From an uncultured Eubacteriales bacterium (GTDB taxonomy: Bacteria > Bacillota > Clostridia > Peptostreptococcales > Anaerovoracaceae), in contig OMZI01000002.1 of assembly GCA_900315485.1 (NCBI GenBank), positions 40,521-104,520 on the forward strand: DNA of 64,000 nt, in the 5' to 3' direction. The notes beneath the pieces are model-generated. The model searched no databases, was not told where the DNA came from, and worked only from the letters and a program-made list of their open reading frames with translations. Shown here one piece after another: positions 30,024 to 59,907 of the stretch. The translations under genes and the position numbers were made by a program. Position 1 is the stretch's first letter. Every line of letters begins with the position of its first letter.

Positions 30024-31451
30024 TCAGTATTCCGGATTAGCCAGACCCATGTTCTTTTCATTGGTCTTCTTGGCTTCCTGGACTGCCTTAGGCAGTACCT
30101 TCAGCAGGTAGTCGACTTCTTCCTCGGTATTGTAGATACCGAAGCTGACACGGATCATGCCAGGTGTGTTTATATCTGAGCATTCGATAAAGCTGCGTAC
30201 CTGCTCTTCAGTCAGTCCGTACAGTCTCCAGACGTATGGATTCGCGCAGAATGCGCCGCGCCTGGTCGCTACGCCGTAGTGATTGGACAGCGCCTCAGCG
30301 ATAAGGCCGGAGTTCGCATCGCTGAAATTGAAGGATACGACTCCTACGCGGTCGCTGAGATCCTTCGAGTCTCCGTATATTATGATGTTGTCCATCTTGA
30401 GAAGGCCGTCAACAAGTCTCTGATTCAGGGCTTTCTCGTGAGCTTCTATATTATCGAATCCGACTTCCTGCAGTATATCTATGGCCTTTCCGAGACCTAC
30501 TACTCCAGGATAGTTTGGGGAGCCCGCCTCATAGCTCTTCGGAGCATCTGTATATTCGACCCAGTCATCTCCTACGATGTTGATAGTACCGCCGCCGTAG
30601 AATTTAGGCATGTGCTGCATAAGATCCTCAGTCAGGCCTACAACAGCACCTCCGCCGTAAGGTGAGTACATCTTGTGTGCAGAGAATACGAAGAAGTCTA
30701 TATTCTCAGAAGGATCATCGCTTGTCATCGAGAACTTCCTGTGTGCAACGATCTGAGCTCCGTCAACGATTATCTTTGCACCGTACTTGTGGGCGAGCTT
30801 TGCTACCCTGTGGACATCGGTGACATAGCCGGTAACATTGGACGCAGCCGTTACTGTGACGTATTTGACCTTGTTGTTCTGCAGCTGTTTTTCTATTTCG
30901 TCATACATGACGCGTCCCTGATCATCCACCTCGGCATAGATGGTGGTGGCATTCTCACGCCATGGAAGATCGTTGGAGTGGTGTTCCATACGTGTAGCAA
31001 GGACGACATCGCTCTTATCTTCTATAAGAGCGGTTGCGAGCTTGTTCAGACCGTCTGTCGTATTGTTGACATAGAAGACGGTGTATGTTTCAGGGTCAGC
31101 ACCCAGAAACTCGAGGACCTTGTCCCTGGTATTATTGTAGAGCTCGGTCGAGTGGTTCGATTTAGGCGAATAACCTCTGCCGATAGAACCGTATTTCTTA
31201 AGTTCCTCATCCACGGCATCCGCGACAGGCTGCAGGGCAGGGGTGGTCGCAGCATTGTCAAAGTTTGTGATCGTCTTCTTTCCGCCCTGTTCCAGATCCA
31301 TCTTCTCATCGATGCCGACGACATAGTTTCTGATGTTGTCGATAGTATAGCCGGTGTCCGTACTCTGTTCAGACTGCTGACTGCAGGCTGCAGATATGCA
31401 TACACTGATGACAAGTACAGCGAAAAGCGGGATATATTTTCTGTATTTCAC
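30024..31451 (-). CDS. Predicted exported lipoprotein PLP enzyme, class V aminotransferase/cysteine-desulfurase fold
   Basis: 475 residues. Residues 1-22 look like a lipoprotein signal peptide: basic 'MKYRKY', a hydrophobic core, and 'SAAC' with candidate lipid Cys23 (Ser at -3 is less usual). A polar ~30-residue linker follows. The enzyme fold is complete: H157/H158 ('MEHHSND'), D230 and Q233 ('VDGAQ'), Schiff-base K260 ('FSAHKMYSPYGGG') and C402 in 'RGAFCANP', the position of the SufS catalytic cysteine. The GTG start at 31451 is backed by AAAGGAGGT about nine bases upstream, so the leader is not an artefact of overcalling; the next Met is residue 51, past the linker. PLP enzymes outside the membrane are rare. 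The reaction (desulfurase, lyase or epimerase) is unknown. It is divergent from the 1607-residue gene. Confidence 0.85.
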   Translation of the reverse strand: MKYRKYIPLFAVLVISVCISAACSQQSEQSTDTGYTIDNIRNYVVGIDEKMDLEQGGKKTITNFDNAATTPALQPVADAVDEELKKYGSIGRGYSPKSNHSTELYNNTRDKVLEFLGADPETYTVFYVNNTTDGLNKLATALIEDKSDVVLATRMEHHSNDLPWRENATTIYAEVDDQGRVMYDEIEKQLQNNKVKYVTVTAASNVTGYVTDVHRVAKLAHKYGAKIIVDGAQIVAHRKFSMTSDDPSENIDFFVFSAHKMYSPYGGGAVVGLTEDLMQHMPKFYGGGTINIVGDDWVEYTDAPKSYEAGSPNYPGVVGLGKAIDILQEVGFDNIEAHEKALNQRLVDGLLKMDNIIIYGDSKDLSDRVGVVSFNFSDANSGLIAEALSNHYGVATRRGAFCANPYVWRLYGLTEEQVRSFIECSDINTPGMIRVSFGIYNTEEEVDYLLKVLPKAVQEAKKTNEKNMGLANPEY

Positions 31452-31545: not shown

Positions 31546-31574
31546 GTGACCGGAATTCCCGCATGGTGTATAAT
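31546..31574 (+). promoter_or_regulatory. Promoter of the 1607-residue gene
   Basis: GTGACC (31546-31551) resembles a -35 box; 17 bases later is TATAAT (31569-31574), 23 bases before the ATG. AT-rich TATATAAT-like sequence on the minus strand near 31499-31507 may serve the divergent lipoprotein gene. Confidence 0.6.
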
Positions 31575-31597
31575 GTGTCAGGACAAAAGGGGGTATT

Positions 31598-34500
31598 ATG
31601 GACAGAGGGGAGCAACTTTACAGAGAAATTATATCTGCTCTTACGGACAGAGCATATCTTTCCACATGCGGGATCAGCAGAAGCAGGGTGCAGGAAAGGT
31701 CTTCAGACATCCGTTATCTTGCGGATATGATCCTGTCTTATTCAGATCAGAACGGCCGCATAAGCGCCGGAAATATTCTTAAAGCGGGCGCAGTATGCCT
31801 TGAAGAGATGAGCCGTATCCCTCAGGAGGGATGGGCTCTTCATTGTTATATGCATGTCCGCGGCACCATTTTCCCGCATCTGGAACTGCCGGATGATTCC
31901 GAAGAATTCAGGACCGGCCGCATCACGGCACTTACGCTCCTCAGGGCTGTTTTCACATATGAACGCAAAGCCTGCAGGTTCGACCCGACTCTGGACATGA
32001 CTCTTCTATCAGACAGCGAGGCGCAGTCAGAGGGGTGCGCATCTGAATATATAAGGATGCACAGACTGGTCCGGATCAATTTCATATATGAATTCATGCG
32101 CCTCGGAACAGAGGTCACGCCCTTCAATACCCTCGGACACATTTCCGGAGTGCATTATGTCGCGACATACATGGCAAGGCAGCTCCGCGATGCGGGCATC
32201 CCTGTTGATGTCGCACTCGCATCTGCCGCTGCTGCAAGCCATGACATAGGCAAATACGGCTGCCGCAAGAGCGAGGAGAGAAGGGTCCCGTACCTTCATT
32301 ACTACTATACAGACTACTGCATGACAGAGAACGGCATGCCTGAGATAGCTCACATTGCAGCCAACCATTCGACCTGGGATCTTGAGTTTGAGAATCTCTC
32401 GGCAGAGTCGCTTCTTCTCATCTATGCTGACTTCAGGGTCAAGAGCACGAGAGAAGACGGCAAAGAGATAATACACTTCTATACACTTGAGCAGGCCTTT
32501 GATGTCATCCTCAGCAAGCTTGACAATGTCGACGATGCCAAGAAGCACAGATATGAAAAGGTATATGCGCGGCTCAAAGACTTTGAAGACTACATGATCG
32601 AGCTCGGCGCTGTGACTGACCTGCCTTCGGATTTTGCCCTTGAGGACGGAGTCATTACGGCTCTGCCTGCAGAAGGCACGGGATACCGCAAGGACAAGCC
32701 TGTACGCGTAAGAAGGGAGATGTCACTCATCCAGGGCGACGATATAATCACACAGCTCAAAATGAAATCCGTGGGGCACAACATACGCCTCATGCACTAT
32801 TTCAATAATAAAGCGGATTTTGCACGCCTCATCGAGGATGCCCGCGGCGAGGCTGACTGGAGGAATCTCCGTACATATATAACCATTCTCGGTGAGTATT
32901 CCACATACATGACCGAAGAGCAGAAGGCCCTAACTCTCAGATTCCTCTACGACCAGCTGATGAACAGGGAGAGCGATGTCAGGGAGCAGTCGGCGCGCCA
33001 GATGGGGCAGATGACAGCAACGTTCAGACAGAGCTACAGAAAGGAGCTGCCTGAGGACATACCTAAGCTGGATGAGACCACGACCAATCTCGAGATGTTC
33101 GAGATGTATCTTCATAAGATGCTGAGTCCGTCTTCAAGGCTGACCGAGAGGCACAGGAACTGGATAATCCAGAGCATGGATTTCTATGTAAGTACAGCGC
33201 TCTCAAGCTGTGCAAAGCAGTTCCTACCGAGATACTATGAAGTGCTTGAGAAGCTGTTTGAAGATACCGGCAGGACTGAGCGGATGACGATGGCCGTCCT
33301 GAACTCAGCCCTTGCGGTCGATGAGGATACGTGTACTGACAGTTTCAGGGAAAAGGCCTCGGGATATGCATGCAATGTTACGGGAAAATACTCAGACAGC
33401 ACAGATCTCCTGGCCCTTGATGTGAGGGAAAAGTTCAGCGGTGATGAGGACGGTAGCATCCGCGCGGCAAGACTCAGGCTGATGGGGATCGATGACGGCG
33501 GCGAGGCTGCCGTGCAGTCTGCTGAGGAAAGGGATGCAGCTCTCTCGGCAATGTTCCTTGATGACCTCAAATTCCAGACCTCGTGGACACGCAAAACTGC
33601 AAACATACGGTACATGACTGACATCGCGGGATCATCCGACAGAAATGTCAGGATGCATATCGCGGCACACTTTGTGAACCTCATAAAGGTCAGCGAGACG
33701 GTCACGGTAAGACGGGAGGCCGGGGAGGCGCTTCTTAAACTCATAAGGAAGATGCCTGCGGATCAGTGCAATGAGATCATGGTCGAACTGTACAACGGAC
33801 TGGATATTGAGGACTACCAGTTCGCAAGGCTCATACCTGAGTATCTCGGCAGGATGATCCTGCTGATGCCGGACAAGGAGATCGACGAAGTCACAGGCAA
33901 TCTCGAGAGCCATATAAGCTCAGGCAATATCAATACGGCCTCGGCATCGCTCATGACAGTCTCGATAATGCTTGAGCACTTCAGTGAATACCGCAGGAGA
34001 GGGACAGAGGAAAGGTGTGAAGAACTTGTAAAACGTCTTTCCGGTCTTCTTATGAAGGGCGTTGCCCACTACAGGGACGCCGTCTCGCAGGAAGCTTTCC
34101 GGACACTTGCAGAGCGGGTCTTCGTGAGCGGTGCGGCATCAGATGATGAAAAACGCATGATACTGGCGCTTACAGGCAAGAGGATACTTACGCTCATCCC
34201 GGATACGGATTCCGAGAAGGACGCGATGGAGTTCTGCAATAATGCAGCAGCTCTCAGGGGTATATACAGATTCATCTCGGAATATATAGCTGAAGAGGGG
34301 CCGTTCGGACTTGAATGCAGGCAGAAAGCGGCTTTCTTCCCGGGCACTTTCGACCCGTTCAGCCTCGGCCACAAGGCTATAGCCTGCACGATACGCGACA
34401 TGGGCTATGAGGTGTACCTTGCGATCGATGAATTCTCGTGGTCCAAGAAGACCCTCCCGCACATGCTGCGAAAGGAGATCCTGGCGATGTCCATAGCCGC

Positions 34501-36421
34501 AGAGACGGACATGTACATATTCCCGGATGATGTTCCTGTAAACATTGCCAATCCTGAAGATCTCGGCAGGCTGCGCAGCCTGTTTGAAGGCAGGGACCTG
34601 TATATAGCAGTCGGATCGGATGTCGTAAGAAACGCTTCGAGCTACAAGGCCGGACCTCAGAAGAACTCGATACACACCTTCAATCACATCGTGTTCGCGC
34701 GTGAGGCAAGGCAGACAGACCGCGGTGAGGATGAAGCATATCCGGTCAGGGGCAAAGTCATAAACCTCAGGCTCGGAAAATTCTATGAAGATATAAGTTC
34801 GACAAGGATCAGAGAAAACATCGACCTCGGAAGAGACATAACATCTCTTATTGATCCGGTCGTACAGAACTACATATACGAGAACAATTTCTACATAAGA
34901 GAGCCGGCATATAAGCATGAGCTTCAGGCAAGAGATATACACATCTCGGGATATGAGCACAGTAACTGCAGGAGGATAAGAAGCCTCAGGGACGAACTGA
35001 CAGGAAGGGGATATGACTTTGACTCTCTCATGACTGTTCTTGAGCGTCCGCGCGTCAGGACGATATATATCGAGAGGACAGGAACTAAACGCTCCGGAGT
35101 ATGCGCTTTTGCATCAGGACGGAGGATAGACAGAAAGGACCTTCTCTTTGAATTCGGGGACACCGATGTCACGCGCAGCATCAGAAGGAGCGCGAACGGC
35201 TCGATAGGCATCATAAATGCCTTCTACTTCGAACGCAGCCGCGATATATCCAACCTCGGGCAGATACTTCTCACCGAGATACTGACTGACATGCTTGCAA
35301 AGGACTACGGATATGTCGTCTATCATCCGGCAGACCCTGCAGGCCTCAGCCAGAACGTGACGGAAGTCCTCAGAAGACAGGGCTTTGTCAACATATCAGA
35401 AGATCATGACAATCCTGTTTATGCGGTAGATATAACTGCACCGGTGGTGCTGTTCCGCGATGTCGAGACGGTGATCAAGGCACCGCTGAACAAGAATCCG
35501 AGGGTCATGAAGGCAGTGGATGATGCCCACAACAACCTTCTTAAGACATTCTGCGAGCTGTATCCGGGCAAGCTGATACTTTCCTTCAATACCAGCGCTG
35601 TCTACAGCAAGATCATTGAGATGGCCGCGAAGGAGAACATGGTGCCGTCAGTGCCAGACCCGGCAAAAAGGAGGGGCCCTTATATGGCGGTGCCGTTCGG
35701 AAAGGCTCTTTCTGATGTCGTCGTACCGAATACTGTCACCAAGGCTCTCAGGACAGAGAAGTTCATAAGTGAGTCGATCCGGGACTTTACGATAAGGGAG
35801 TCCCGCGGTTATGCAGAGCTTGAGGATCAGGTCAGGACGCTTAAATCTTTCAACAGAGATGTGATCCTCATAGACGACCTTCTCCACTCCGGCCAGAGGA
35901 TGAAAAGGATAGACCCTATCCTGAGAGAGAATGATGTGAATGTCAGGAAGGTCATAGTCGGCCTGCTGACGGGCAACGCAAGAGACGAGATGGCTGTCAG
36001 CCGCAGGGCTGTGGACGGGGCATACTTCATCCCTGTCATAACCATGTGGCTCAACGAGAGAGACTGCTATCCGTTCATCGGGGGAGACAGCTTTGAGTCA
36101 GGAGACAGGAACGCATCGATCAATATCATAATGCCGTACACATCCTACAGCTTTGTCGGCGGAAGGGACTCCGAGAAGGTGTACAGGTACTCGATGACAT
36201 GCCTTGAGAATGCGAGGGACATAATGAAGGTCATCGAGCAGGAATATCAGGCGGAGTTTGAAAAGCAGCTGACTCTCGGAAGGCTTGGTGCTGTCATCAC
36301 AAATCCGCGCCGTCCGGATTACGGAGACGGGCTCCTGTATGATGAGAACGCGGCACCGAGCGTGTATATAGAGAGCGACATAAAGCGCGCGAAGAGGCTG
36401 CACCTGTCACGGGATAAGTAG
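31598..36421 (+). CDS. Giant fusion: HD phosphohydrolase, helical repeats, nucleotidylyltransferase, GNAT-like and PRTase-like domains
   Basis: 1607 residues, soluble, no signal peptide. Region about 175-300 is an HD domain: H186, H215-D216 ('ASHDIGKYG'), H257 ('AANHSTWD') and D278 ('IYADFRVK'). Their spacing resembles YqeK (Ap4A hydrolase). About 380-900 is helical and repetitive, probably HEAT-like. About 908-1110 is a NadD/CoaD-type nucleotidylyltransferase with 'GTFDPFSLGH' at 916-925 and 'ISSTRIR' at 1066-1072. About 1120-1280 may be a GNAT fold ('LLTEILTDML', 'LRRQGF'), weakly supported. About 1290-1500 resembles a type I phosphoribosyltransferase, with 'VILIDDLLHSGQ' at 1422-1433 as PRPP loop. 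AAAAGGGGG precedes the ATG. YqeK and NadD are often neighbours in Firmicutes, so a link to NAD or dinucleotide metabolism is reasonable but inferred. Confidence 0.85.
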   Translation: MDRGEQLYREIISALTDRAYLSTCGISRSRVQERSSDIRYLADMILSYSDQNGRISAGNILKAGAVCLEEMSRIPQEGWALHCYMHVRGTIFPHLELPDDSEEFRTGRITALTLLRAVFTYERKACRFDPTLDMTLLSDSEAQSEGCASEYIRMHRLVRINFIYEFMRLGTEVTPFNTLGHISGVHYVATYMARQLRDAGIPVDVALASAAAASHDIGKYGCRKSEERRVPYLHYYYTDYCMTENGMPEIAHIAANHSTWDLEFENLSAESLLLIYADFRVKSTREDGKEIIHFYTLEQAFDVILSKLDNVDDAKKHRYEKVYARLKDFEDYMIELGAVTDLPSDFALEDGVITALPAEGTGYRKDKPVRVRREMSLIQGDDIITQLKMKSVGHNIRLMHYFNNKADFARLIEDARGEADWRNLRTYITILGEYSTYMTEEQKALTLRFLYDQLMNRESDVREQSARQMGQMTATFRQSYRKELPEDIPKLDETTTNLEMFEMYLHKMLSPSSRLTERHRNWIIQSMDFYVSTALSSCAKQFLPRYYEVLEKLFEDTGRTERMTMAVLNSALAVDEDTCTDSFREKASGYACNVTGKYSDSTDLLALDVREKFSGDEDGSIRAARLRLMGIDDGGEAAVQSAEERDAALSAMFLDDLKFQTSWTRKTANIRYMTDIAGSSDRNVRMHIAAHFVNLIKVSETVTVRREAGEALLKLIRKMPADQCNEIMVELYNGLDIEDYQFARLIPEYLGRMILLMPDKEIDEVTGNLESHISSGNINTASASLMTVSIMLEHFSEYRRRGTEERCEELVKRLSGLLMKGVAHYRDAVSQEAFRTLAERVFVSGAASDDEKRMILALTGKRILTLIPDTDSEKDAMEFCNNAAALRGIYRFISEYIAEEGPFGLECRQKAAFFPGTFDPFSLGHKAIACTIRDMGYEVYLAIDEFSWSKKTLPHMLRKEILAMSIAAETDMYIFPDDVPVNIANPEDLGRLRSLFEGRDLYIAVGSDVVRNASSYKAGPQKNSIHTFNHIVFAREARQTDRGEDEAYPVRGKVINLRLGKFYEDISSTRIRENIDLGRDITSLIDPVVQNYIYENNFYIREPAYKHELQARDIHISGYEHSNCRRIRSLRDELTGRGYDFDSLMTVLERPRVRTIYIERTGTKRSGVCAFASGRRIDRKDLLFEFGDTDVTRSIRRSANGSIGIINAFYFERSRDISNLGQILLTEILTDMLAKDYGYVVYHPADPAGLSQNVTEVLRRQGFVNISEDHDNPVYAVDITAPVVLFRDVETVIKAPLNKNPRVMKAVDDAHNNLLKTFCELYPGKLILSFNTSAVYSKIIEMAAKENMVPSVPDPAKRRGPYMAVPFGKALSDVVVPNTVTKALRTEKFISESIRDFTIRESRGYAELEDQVRTLKSFNRDVILIDDLLHSGQRMKRIDPILRENDVNVRKVIVGLLTGNARDEMAVSRRAVDGAYFIPVITMWLNERDCYPFIGGDSFESGDRNASINIIMPYTSYSFVGGRDSEKVYRYSMTCLENARDIMKVIEQEYQAEFEKQLTLGRLGAVITNPRRPDYGDGLLYDENAAPSVYIESDIKRAKRLHLSRDK

Positions 36422-36591: not shown

Positions 36592-37575
36592 ATGCACAGA
36601 ATAAAAGAACTGGTAAATGAGATCGGGGTGGACGCACCCGTATCACTGGCAGGACACCCCATACGCCCGGGGGAAAAGCACCGGGTCAATATCCTGGCGC
36701 TCGGTGATGTAGGGACCACGATGCTCATAGGACTGAGGCTGATGGGTGCGGATGTCATATCTGAGATAGGCATCTGTGACATAAGGCCTGAGAACTGCGA
36801 GAGGCTTGTACGCGAGATCAACCAGATAAGATTTCCGGACGGTGAGCCACATCTGCCTCCCGTGAGGATAGTGACTGAAGAGGAACTCTTCGATACCGAC
36901 GTCTTCATATTCTGCGCCAGCAAGGGTGTGCCGGACCTCGGAAAAGAGAAAGATCCGGACTTCGATGTCAGGATGGCGCAGCTGGATGCAAACAGAGGAA
37001 TCATAGAGCACTATGCCGGACTGGCGCGTGCGGCAGAGTTCAGGGGGCTGATCGCTGTGGTGAGTGATCCTGTGGACAACCTCTGCGTAGCATTTCTCGA
37101 TGCATCGGGCCTGAAGCCGTGGCAGCTGCGGGGGTACGGTCTCGGAGTCATGAACGCGCGGGCTGCATATTACGCTGAAAGAGACGAGAGATTCAGCTCA
37201 TATCTTTCAGAAGGCAGAGCTTTCGGTCCGCACGGGCAGGACCTGGTCATCGCCAACAGCATTGAGAACTATGATGATGAGCTGTCACGCGAACTTACAG
37301 AGCTGGCAACGGGGGCCAATCTTGAGGTGAGAGAGCTCGGCTTCAAGCCGTATATCGCACCGGCGATGTCGTCGGCGGCGATATCGATACTACTTACACT
37401 CAGGGGAGAGTGGAACTACGGCTCACTGTATCTTGGGGATGAGAACAGAGGATCCTTCTTGGGGATCAGGAGCAGATTTAACGGGGATAATTGGGACTAC
37501 GAGGATCCGGAGCTTCCGGATAAATTATATGAGAGGATCAGAGATTCATACATCAGGCTCTGCGATATCAGGTGA
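36592..37575 (+). CDS. Divergent lactate/malate dehydrogenase superfamily protein
   Basis: 327 residues. After a ~30-residue lead-in comes a Rossmann fold, 'LALGDVGTT' (36-43 region), with D63 ('CDIRP') at the end of strand 2, which suggests NAD rather than NADP. 'SDPVDNLC' (158-165) matches the family NPVD motif; 'GVMNARAAY' (185-193) aligns with the LDSARFR helix, and 'GPHGQD' (212-217) carries the catalytic histidine H214. R127 and R190 fit the substrate arginines, but the relay aspartate appears to be Met187. The enzyme may therefore act on an unusual substrate or have lost activity. AGGAG precedes the ATG. It follows the giant gene by 170 bases and overlaps the next gene. Confidence 0.75.
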   Translation: MHRIKELVNEIGVDAPVSLAGHPIRPGEKHRVNILALGDVGTTMLIGLRLMGADVISEIGICDIRPENCERLVREINQIRFPDGEPHLPPVRIVTEEELFDTDVFIFCASKGVPDLGKEKDPDFDVRMAQLDANRGIIEHYAGLARAAEFRGLIAVVSDPVDNLCVAFLDASGLKPWQLRGYGLGVMNARAAYYAERDERFSSYLSEGRAFGPHGQDLVIANSIENYDDELSRELTELATGANLEVRELGFKPYIAPAMSSAAISILLTLRGEWNYGSLYLGDENRGSFLGIRSRFNGDNWDYEDPELPDKLYERIRDSYIRLCDIR

Positions 37576-38698
37576 GGGGACCTGCAGCAGAGACAATATT
37601 AACAGAGACAATATTAATTCAGCAGAAAACCGCAGGCTCATCGTAATAAAGCCTGCATGTGATTCAGAGGACAGGGCGTCAAGACTCGACGGCATGCTGC
37701 TGCCGTATCTTGATGTACTGAAAGAGCGCGGCATCGATGTCGTAATATACAGCCATGTCAGTGAATTTGAGGACAGGGACATCTCGTCTGAAAGGATACT
37801 GTTTGCCGTGGCTCTGTCGGAAGCGGGGGTCAATATCGAGTACTACCGCCTGCTTGAGCACCTGCGCGGACACCCTGACTGCCTTGAAGGATCTGTCGGA
37901 GGGATAATAGTCGACGGAGGGGGAGAGTTCTATACCAAAGCAATCGCGAGGCGCTTTGCATTCTCTGCAAACATGTGCGGATGCACCTTCCCGGGGAAGC
38001 CGCTTGTGGAGGCGACAGGATCTCTCGGGAACTTCCATGTGCTCAGCACCATATCCGGTAGAGAGCCGGAAGATATATACAGTGCGCAGGTCCGCTCGCT
38101 TGTCGATAAGGTCCTGGACTTCGAACTGCCGGAAGCAGGCGGGAAGATAAAGCTTCTGGCTCTTCATGCCAGCACACGCAGGACATCCAATACACTTCTT
38201 CTGTGGGACATGGTGAAAAAGCATCTGTACAGCCGCGCGGAGATAACTGAGATATCTCTGCAGAACGGTCAGATCTACGACTGCCGCGGATGCAGCTATG
38301 AGGCATGTCTGCATTTCGGCGAGCAGGGAACGTGCTTCTACGGAGGGATAATCACGGACCAGGTGTATCCGGCGCTTCTCGAGGCAGATGCTGTTGTCCT
38401 CATATGCCCTAATTACAATGACGCACTCAGCGCCAATCTGACGGCCTTCGTCAACAGGCTTACTTCACTGTTCCGGTCACATGATTTCTCGGACAAGAGG
38501 GTGTATGCCGTGATCGTATCGGGCTATTCCGGCGGGGACATCATCGCAGAGCAGATCATCGGCGCGCTGAATTTCAACAAGTCATTCATACTGCCTGCGG
38601 ACTTTGCAATGCTTGAGACAGCTAACGACCCGAAGAGCATCCTTGCAGTCGCAGACATAGAAGAAAAAGCAGGGAAGTTCGCTTTCCGCATATACTGA
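37529..38698 (+). CDS. NAD(P)H-dependent FMN reductase-like protein with two flavodoxin-type halves
   Basis: About 389 residues from the ATG at 37529, which overlaps the dehydrogenase gene by 47 bases; an upstream in-frame ATG (37433) would overlap far more and is less likely. The start remains uncertain. The C-terminal half is a clear NADPH-dependent FMN reductase/flavodoxin-like fold: 'LLALHASTRRTSNT' phosphate loop, a Cys-rich 'CRGCSYEACLHFGEQGTC', and 'CPNYNDALSANLTAFVNRL' as the flavin/dimer segment. The N-terminal half looks like a second, degenerate copy ('VDGGGEFYTKAIARRFAF', 'CGCTFPGKPLVEATGSLG'). It ends at a strong terminator, closing the three-gene set with the giant protein. Confidence 0.75.
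   Translation: MRGSEIHTSGSAISGEGTCSRDNINRDNINSAENRRLIVIKPACDSEDRASRLDGMLLPYLDVLKERGIDVVIYSHVSEFEDRDISSERILFAVALSEAGVNIEYYRLLEHLRGHPDCLEGSVGGIIVDGGGEFYTKAIARRFAFSANMCGCTFPGKPLVEATGSLGNFHVLSTISGREPEDIYSAQVRSLVDKVLDFELPEAGGKIKLLALHASTRRTSNTLLLWDMVKKHLYSRAEITEISLQNGQIYDCRGCSYEACLHFGEQGTCFYGGIITDQVYPALLEADAVVLICPNYNDALSANLTAFVNRLTSLFRSHDFSDKRVYAVIVSGYSGGDIIAEQIIGALNFNKSFILPADFAMLETANDPKSILAVADIEEKAGKFAFRIY
37588..37617 (+). repeat. 15-bp tandem duplication near the start of the flavoprotein gene
   Basis: CAGAGACAATATTAA occurs twice head to tail (37588-37602, 37603-37617), giving the duplicated peptide RDNIN in the predicted N-terminus. It falls in a low-complexity stretch just before recognisable domain sequence. 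Confidence 0.85.
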
Positions 38699-39619: not shown

Positions 39620-40768
39620 ATGGCAGTTCATGAACACATGAATCAGGCAGTCTACAGTCTGAAGAGGAGTGCAATAAGAGAGTTCTCCAGGCTGGCTGCA
39701 TCTGTTCCCGGGTGTGTAAGACTTACTCTCGGCGAGCCGGATTTTGATACGCCTGAGGTGATAAGCTGCGAAGTCAGCGCATCAGTCGCTGCAGGTGACA
39801 CACATTATATAGAGAATAACGGAAGCAGGATCCTGCGAGAGCGCATCTCAGCGTTCGAGAAAACTAAAGGCCTTGAGTACAGTGCAGATGAGATAATCGT
39901 TACTGCAGGCGCAACTGAGGCACTGTTCGTATCGCTTCTCGGAATACTGGATCCGGGTGATGAGGTGATCATTCCGGTGCCGGCATTTGTTCTGTATGAG
40001 CAGATAGTGAACCTCTGCAGGGGAGTATGTGTCCCGATGAATACATCAGGAGCAGGGTTTCAGATAAGAAAAGATGATCTTGAGCCCCTGATAAGCAGCA
40101 GAACGAAGGCGGTGATCCTCAACTCTCCTAACAATCCGACCGGCTGCGTATATGACGAAGAGAGCCTGAGAACGGTATATGAAGCTGTAAAGGGAAGAAA
40201 TGTTTTCGTCTTATGTGATGATGTGTACAGGTCACTGTACTACGGCTTCGGGTATCACAGTTTCGCGGAATACCGCGACATCAGGGAACAGATCCTTGCT
40301 GTGCAGAGCTTCTCCAAGCCTTACGCGATGACAGGATGGAGGATGGGCTACCTGATGGCTGACGCATCCGTAAAAGAGAGACTCGAGCTGGTGCACCAGT
40401 TCGATGTTGTCTCAACTCCGTCAATCATGCAGAAGGCCTGCATCACTGCACTGGATACAGATACTTCATATATGACTGAAGAATACAGAAGGCGGAGAGA
40501 CTATGTGACAGACAGGCTAAGGGATATGGGCCTTGAGACAGAGACCCCGGAAGGCGCATTTTATGTTTTCCCTTCGATCAGGAAATATGGCATGGGTTCG
40601 TTTGAATTTGCTGAGAGACTTGTCCGGGAGGGAGCTGTTGCTGTCACGCCGGGTGCGGCGTTCGGCTCAGATGATCACATAAGGATCTCATACTGCTGCA
40701 GCATGGATGATTTAAAGAAGGGCCTCGACCGTCTTGAGAGCTTCCTGATAACAATCCGGGAAAAATGA
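39620..40768 (+). CDS. N-acetyl-LL-diaminopimelate aminotransferase (PatA-like, class I/II)
   Basis: 382 residues, fold-type I PLP aminotransferase. Schiff-base lysine K233 sits in 'SFSKPYAMTGWRMGY'; 'NSPNNPTG' and 'DDVYRSLYYG' are the cofactor and tyrosine motifs, and the C-terminal arginine motif is 'DHIRISYC'. By itself it could be a general aspartate/aromatic aminotransferase; lying between dapH and dapF, it most likely transaminates N-acetyl-2-amino-6-oxopimelate with glutamate. The ATG at 39620 is preceded by GGTGGAGGT; the open frame extends upstream over the end of dapH but without a better start. Confidence 0.88.
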   Translation: MAVHEHMNQAVYSLKRSAIREFSRLAASVPGCVRLTLGEPDFDTPEVISCEVSASVAAGDTHYIENNGSRILRERISAFEKTKGLEYSADEIIVTAGATEALFVSLLGILDPGDEVIIPVPAFVLYEQIVNLCRGVCVPMNTSGAGFQIRKDDLEPLISSRTKAVILNSPNNPTGCVYDEESLRTVYEAVKGRNVFVLCDDVYRSLYYGFGYHSFAEYRDIREQILAVQSFSKPYAMTGWRMGYLMADASVKERLELVHQFDVVSTPSIMQKACITALDTDTSYMTEEYRRRRDYVTDRLRDMGLETETPEGAFYVFPSIRKYGMGSFEFAERLVREGAVAVTPGAAFGSDDHIRISYCCSMDDLKKGLDRLESFLITIREK

Positions 40769-59831: not shown

Positions 59832-59907
59832 TGGTGGTCTATGTGGGGCTCGAACCCACGACATCATGGTTGTGACCCATGCGCTCTCCCAGCTGAGCTA
59901 ACAGACC
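59832..59907 (-). tRNA. tRNA-Val (anticodon CAC)
   Basis: Reading the minus strand from 59907: acceptor GGTCTGT pairs with ATAGACC (one G-T pair); D arm GCTC/GAGC; anticodon arm CATGG/CCATG with loop GTCACAA, giving T33 and anticodon CAC; five-base variable loop; T arm GTGGG/CCCAC with TTCGAGC. A73 and an encoded CCA end follow. CAC reads GUG (valine). The plus-strand text shows GTG at this place, which must not be mistaken for a histidine anticodon because the T arm fixes the orientation. Confidence 0.93.

Follow-up and report, generated by a model that had tools for sequence, protein, structure and literature searches.

Our results show that one gene in the 64,000-nucleotide stretch of DNA analysed here (contig OMZI01000002.1 of an uncultured Eubacteriales bacterium, positions 40,521 to 104,520; hereafter the window) encodes a 1607-residue fusion of several nucleotide-handling modules. 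The protein is real and belongs to a family of anaerobic bacteria. Its gene (31598..36421, forward strand, with an ATG at 31598 and a stop codon ending at 36421) heads a three-gene cassette, in which a dehydrogenase and a flavoprotein gene follow. The reading we favour, at a rough probability of 0.45, is that the fusion is an accessory factory for nucleotide assembly and turnover with two dedicated redox enzymes; its substrates, direction and products we infer. What we observe is the architecture, the conserved catalytic residues, the gene linkage and co-occurrence, and the presence of the fusion in genomes that also have housekeeping nadD and, mostly, yqeK.

A preliminary description of the window had reported this open reading frame (ORF) and its motifs, and both are present where it placed them. 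It had counted five parts; the domains it named are there, but we count six, a GNAT-fold domain having been missed. All six lie on the forward strand. An N-terminal helical region seen in the AF2 model (residues 1–139, 31598..32014) is followed by an HD-domain region recognized from Pfam HD and conservation (residues 140–345, 32015..32632, with H181, H215, D216, H234, H257 and D278) and a HEAT-type alpha-solenoid of about 500 residues (~382–900, 32741..34297). Then come an NMNAT-fold nucleotidylyltransferase (908–1103, 34319..34906, with GTFDPFSLGH at 916–925 and ISSTRIR at 1066–1072), the GNAT-fold domain (~1113–1281, 34934..35440) and a type-I phosphoribosyltransferase-like (PRTase-like) domain with a C-terminal extension (1290–1600, 35465..36397, with D1426-D1427 and R1434). 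The last is assigned from weak but consistent NCBIfam and Pfam PRTase matches and from the strand and helix order of the AF2 model. A chance or wrongly joined ORF is ruled out, as relatives of 34–99% identity, mostly 1550–1700 residues long, occur in many assemblies. In one genome (G054) the fusion gene (L108 4257-9394, minus strand) consists of ORFs of 1355 and 378 residues that overlap in different frames and are broken between the GNAT-fold and PRTase parts, which may be a true split or an assembly error.

The first partner is a 327-residue dehydrogenase resembling lactate and malate dehydrogenases (LDH/MDH-like; 36592..37575, forward strand; Pfam Ldh_1_N, E 7.6e-5, below the curated cut-off). 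The second is a flavoprotein of the FMN-reductase type with about 389 residues and four invariant cysteines (37529..38698, forward strand; Pfam FMN_red, E 6e-19, run on 37520-38695), whose likely ATG at 37529, a start inferred from translation, overlaps the dehydrogenase gene by 47 nt. Neither partner appeared in the preliminary description; both were found here as nearly constant neighbours of the fusion gene. Among 57 loci from a scan of named records, some of them near-duplicates, the dehydrogenase gene directly follows the fusion gene in 53, and in the other four fewer than 300 bases of contig are left. The flavoprotein gene comes next in 47 loci; of the ten loci without it, eight end less than 700 bases past the fusion, in L056 the contig runs on for about 400 bases beyond the dehydrogenase gene, and the tenth is L052. 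A later set of 44 loci from carrier genomes, partly overlapping the first, has both partners on the same strand in 39. Four of the five loci without an adjacent pair are second copies (in G082, G092, G069 and G091) with a paired copy elsewhere in the genome, and the fifth is in G423, which has its redox pair close to the beginning of a different contig. Members of the dehydrogenase family (E <= 1e-10) are found in 3/3 and 10/10 carriers in two sets that share two genomes, and in 0/52 fusion-lacking genomes. Full-length members of the flavoprotein family (>300 bits) occur in 6/6 carriers and in 0/52 fusion-lacking genomes, four of which have partial matches of 43–59 bits. The alignments of the two partners omit L028 and L071 (dehydrogenase) and L025 (flavoprotein). 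Iron-sulfur flavoproteins have a cysteine pattern like that of the second partner (C255, C258, C263 and C272 in the numbering of the aligned stretch), and it probably carries an iron-sulfur (Fe-S) cluster.

Strong matches to the fusion (E <= 1e-50) were counted in two sets that both contain the window's own genome: 38 of 99 near relatives have one, as do 8 of 398 genomes taken from the phylum. A search for the same architecture, proposed earlier as a check, finds it in Clostridia and Atribacterota. Carriers among the 57 loci include Anaerovorax, Peptoclostridium, Alkalithermobacter, Fervidicella, Anoxynatronum and Atribacterota, and the closest records are uncultured Clostridiales assemblies with 99% identity. 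In a quick tree, whose root is not known, the three Atribacterota rows fall together on one side of one branch. One could argue that such patchy presence, together with make-and-break domains on one chain and the same two partners, points to a signalling machine, in which an alarmone-like dinucleotide, made by the NMNAT-fold domain and broken by the HD domain, controls the dehydrogenase and the flavoprotein. We regard this as improbable. No other gene family near the fusion exceeds 9 of the 57 loci (opposite-strand frames were set aside as shadows), hence there is no conserved same-strand regulator or receptor nearby, and at Rfam gathering thresholds no element adjoins the fusion gene in the window or in seven other loci. 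A T-box, a SAM riboswitch and a 6S RNA in three of these seven loci are positioned away from it.

Conservation was assessed in a dereplicated set of 53 rows that contains the window protein. In the HD domain H215, D216 and D278 are present in all 53 rows and H257 in 52. The NMNAT-type transferase and the helical repeats, as first called, hold up; in the transferase G916, F918, D919, P920, F921, H925, S1068 and R1072 are invariant in all 53 rows. In the PRTase-like domain D1426 is found in 53 rows and D1427 in 52. The 44-locus set contains a few exceptions: HD is absent in L105 and H257 is changed in L117, the NMNAT motifs are degenerate in L106 and L107, and in place of the DD pair L124 has DE and L129 has TD. 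When the domains are aligned singly, mean column identity is 69% for HD, 58% for PRTase and lowest, 39%, for the GNAT-fold domain (three rows with a shorter GNAT region, L038, L065 and L077, omitted). The acetyl-CoA loop of GNAT enzymes has the pattern [QR]xxGx[GA]. Because conservation among the three is lowest in the GNAT-fold part and this pattern occurs in only 1/39 rows, and there out of place, that part is probably structural and non-catalytic.

The large solenoid, the GNAT-fold part lacking its loop pattern and the altered PRTase loop described below would also suit a mostly non-catalytic protein, a scaffold for nucleotide sensing or assembly on which the two redox enzymes are matured or held. 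However, little or nothing varies among the HD, NMNAT and PRTase residues in sequences down to 34% identity, which is unusual for dead domains, and the degenerate NMNAT copies found are second copies in two genomes. A scaffold of this kind therefore strikes us as highly doubtful.

These second copies are informative in their own right. G082 carries one copy of 1076 residues that lacks the HD domain, keeps its NMNAT motifs and has both partner genes, and another of 1217 residues that keeps the HD residues, has lost the NMNAT motifs and lacks the partners. The second copy in G092 has an intact HD domain, a His to Gln change in the NMNAT motif and no partners. The two second copies with HD residues intact, NMNAT motifs degenerate and no redox pair lie at L106 4437-8090 (forward strand) and L107 4523-8893 (reverse strand). 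The copy patterns in G082 and G092 suggest that HD and transferase activities are separable, with the redox pair tied to the latter.

The HD part has the H..HD..D residues of its superfamily and a Pfam HD match, with invariant ligands. The match scores 21.0 bits on the whole protein, against a cut-off of 22, and 22 bits for residues 1–905; 11/41 members match at E <= 0.01, and the best match of the HD profile to PDB sequences is weak (E 0.18). Of the HD residues named earlier, H215, D216, H257 and D278 are confirmed as invariant or nearly so. H186 is not a metal ligand, the residue being H in 46, N in 6 and S in 1 of the 53 rows; the first ligand is H181, which is invariant in the sets of 41 and 42 rows, as is a further histidine, H234. 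The resulting ligand order is H..HD..H..H..D. Two extra histidines between HD and D mark the dinuclear hydrolase YqeK, as far as the available part of the source describes it (PMC8177086), and the fusion has them in H234 and H257. The label "YqeK-like" is thus apt for the ligand order and not for family membership: TIGR00488, the YqeK model, has no match at the fusion gene in 41 carrier genomes at E <= 1e-3. Residues 160–284 (window 32075-32449) also match NCBIfam NF045665 (DVU_1551 family NTP transferase; E 5.5e-6), well below that model's cut-off and over profile positions 201–314 of 359.

The NMNAT-fold domain has the GxFDP..H and SSTxxR motifs of NadD. Against TIGR00482, the NadD model, the window protein scores 49.8 bits where the cut-off is 112.45, and all fusion places listed lie under it. 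In NadD, the SYTxDT and TW motifs have a role in nicotinate recognition. The fusion lacks both, and its loop following the second strand reads SWSKK instead of being of the PPHK type. The alignment compares it with three rows of canonical NadD, which represent two different proteins, and leaves out a candidate NadD locus (L086) that did not fit the search pattern. Because the motifs that contact nicotinate are missing, we infer a changed acceptor for this domain.

The carriers tested for separate NAD genes were 41 of the 45 found among near relatives and phylum genomes. All 41 have a canonical, separate nadD over the curated cut-off and 37 have a canonical yqeK over the cut-off, which rules out the fusion as a replacement for a missing nadD or yqeK. 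Judged from this gene content, its role is not housekeeping NAD synthesis. A NAD-related alternative is damage control, in which an enlarged NadD-YqeK-type unit remakes or proofreads NAD-type dinucleotides and the redox partners treat damaged forms. NadD and YqeK are fused in most mycoplasmas, where a proofreading role has been proposed (PMC9426524, available part), and the HD ligand order is consistent with a dinuclear YqeK (PMC8177086, available part). However, all carriers tested already possess canonical nadD and most of them yqeK, the motifs SYTxDT and TW are missing relative to two different NadD proteins, TIGR00488 finds no match on the fusion, and the PRTase part is left without a role. 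We consider damage control unlikely. The earlier suggestion that one polypeptide makes and breaks a nucleotide is still the best reading; NAD as its product is not supported.

The PRTase-like part was described earlier as having a PRPP-type loop (PRPP, phosphoribosyl pyrophosphate). The aspartate pair is indeed conserved, and a PRTase domain is indicated by weak sequence matches. The textbook PRPP motif is DDxxxTGxT, ending in T/S-G-x-T/S, but this ending is found in 0/42 rows. The loop reads DD-[LIY]-[LVY]-[HNY]-[KS]-G-[YQH]-R, from which one row departs at the second D and one, with S, at G; the DD pair is intact in 41/42 rows, Gly is preceded by Lys in 36 rows and by Ser in 6, and the last Thr/Ser position is Arg in 42/42. 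Profile similarity is present but weak: Pfam matches 5/42 members at E <= 0.01 and the NCBIfam adenine-type (APRT) model 28/42 at E <= 0.1, while the window protein reaches none of the curated Pfam and NCBIfam PRTase cut-offs. In the AF2 model the order of strands and helices fits a PRTase; the fold matches listed are NMNAT and a few acetyltransferases. A bolder idea has the cassette produce a dinucleotide cofactor of anaerobes that has not been described, and use it as well. The PRTase-fold domain with its basic K-G-Y-R loop would act on a 5'-diphospho (dinucleotide-type) ribose and not on plain PRPP, the NMNAT-fold domain would cap a non-nicotinate nucleotide with AMP, the HD domain would edit, and the dehydrogenase and Fe-S flavoprotein would be the dedicated redox users. 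We hold so specific a version to be rather unlikely.

Under the accessory-factory reading, the C-terminal PRTase-fold domain would make or exchange a (phospho)ribosyl compound. The NMNAT-fold domain would transfer the nucleoside monophosphate part of an NTP to a phosphorylated acceptor, giving a dinucleotide-like product. The HD domain would hydrolyse a phosphoanhydride, in the product or in by-products, which could serve proofreading, turnover or a subsequent step. The active sites would be kept together by the HEAT solenoid and the GNAT-fold domain, and the dehydrogenase and flavoprotein would modify the product or use it as cofactor or signal. Several points weigh against this scheme. The altered NMNAT motifs do not point to a particular acceptor, nor does sequence alone tell which substrates are used. 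The PRTase match is weak (best E 9e-5; profile against PDB, E 0.14; hhalign separates poorly), and with an altered phosphate loop and two loci off the DD pair this part may not use PRPP. The link between the pair and the transferase comes from two genomes. Furthermore, L115 and L128 have all motifs intact without adjacent partners, and L117 (H257 to Tyr) is likewise unpaired. Such unpaired copies mean that a fusion gene does not always need the two partners in cis.

We also looked at the surroundings and possible origin of the gene. Upstream of the start codon, reading by eye gives a candidate -10 box, TATAAT (31569..31574, forward strand), and a candidate ribosome-binding site, AAAAGGGGG (31585-31593, forward strand). 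A class V aminotransferase gene lies at 30024-31451 on the reverse strand (Pfam E 2.4e-85); its N-terminus, VISVCISAAC, looks lipoprotein-signal-like by eye; an exported pyridoxal phosphate enzyme would be odd. At the gathering threshold Rfam matches the window at one place, a tRNA gene (59835-59907, reverse strand). A phage origin is ruled out by the lack of any match in a phage collection of 50,697 records, and a plasmid origin likewise, the one record from the plasmid collection being a 2.63-Mb Acetoanaerobium replicon that looks chromosomal by size. One profile scan gave short partial matches in the NMNAT motif region on two IMG/VR contigs (L103 5001-5096 and L104 5001-5174; 32 and 58 query residues). 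A known anti-phage defence system is ruled out as well, with 0 PADLOC families at E <= 0.01 for the three cassette proteins.

A giant enzyme with conserved active sites and two linked redox partners, retained in Clostridia and Atribacterota in addition to the normal NAD genes, implies that current annotation overlooks a step involving a metabolite or cofactor. Through the linkage a few partners can be named for testing, along with cultured hosts (e.g., Anaerovorax, Peptoclostridium and Acetoanaerobium). Within the open-licence PMC literature we found no description of the architecture or the cassette, in agreement with the initial remark that no protein with this domain order had been described.

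How, then, does the cassette compare with known systems? The first partner shares a Rossmann domain with L-lactate and malate dehydrogenases, and the positions of the active-site His and the mobile-loop Arg align, but it falls under every curated cut-off. In LDH an Asp-x-x-Arg segment holds the hydroxy-acid; because MNAR replaces it here, the partner likely acts on a different substrate. Adenine and hypoxanthine type-I PRTases resemble the fusion through weak profile matches around the DD loop and differ from it in the loop ending and in the fusion's own conserved VPNTVTK and GGD stretches. YqeK, the dinuclear HD Ap4A hydrolase, shares the ligand order (PMC8177086, available part), whereas the fusion escapes its model and has conserved LHYYYTD and NHSTWDLE stretches of its own. 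Canonical NadD is alike in fold and catalytic motifs and unlike in model score, loop and nicotinate motifs. The NadD-YqeK fusion of mycoplasmas (JCVISYN3A_0380) is built from canonical NadD and YqeK, neither of whose models the window protein passes, and the available part of its description makes no mention of solenoid, GNAT-fold or PRTase parts or of a linked redox pair (PMC9426524). What the two proteins have in common, as far as that part describes it, is an NMNAT-fold transferase and an HD hydrolase on one chain, and with them the same make-and-break logic (PMC9426524).
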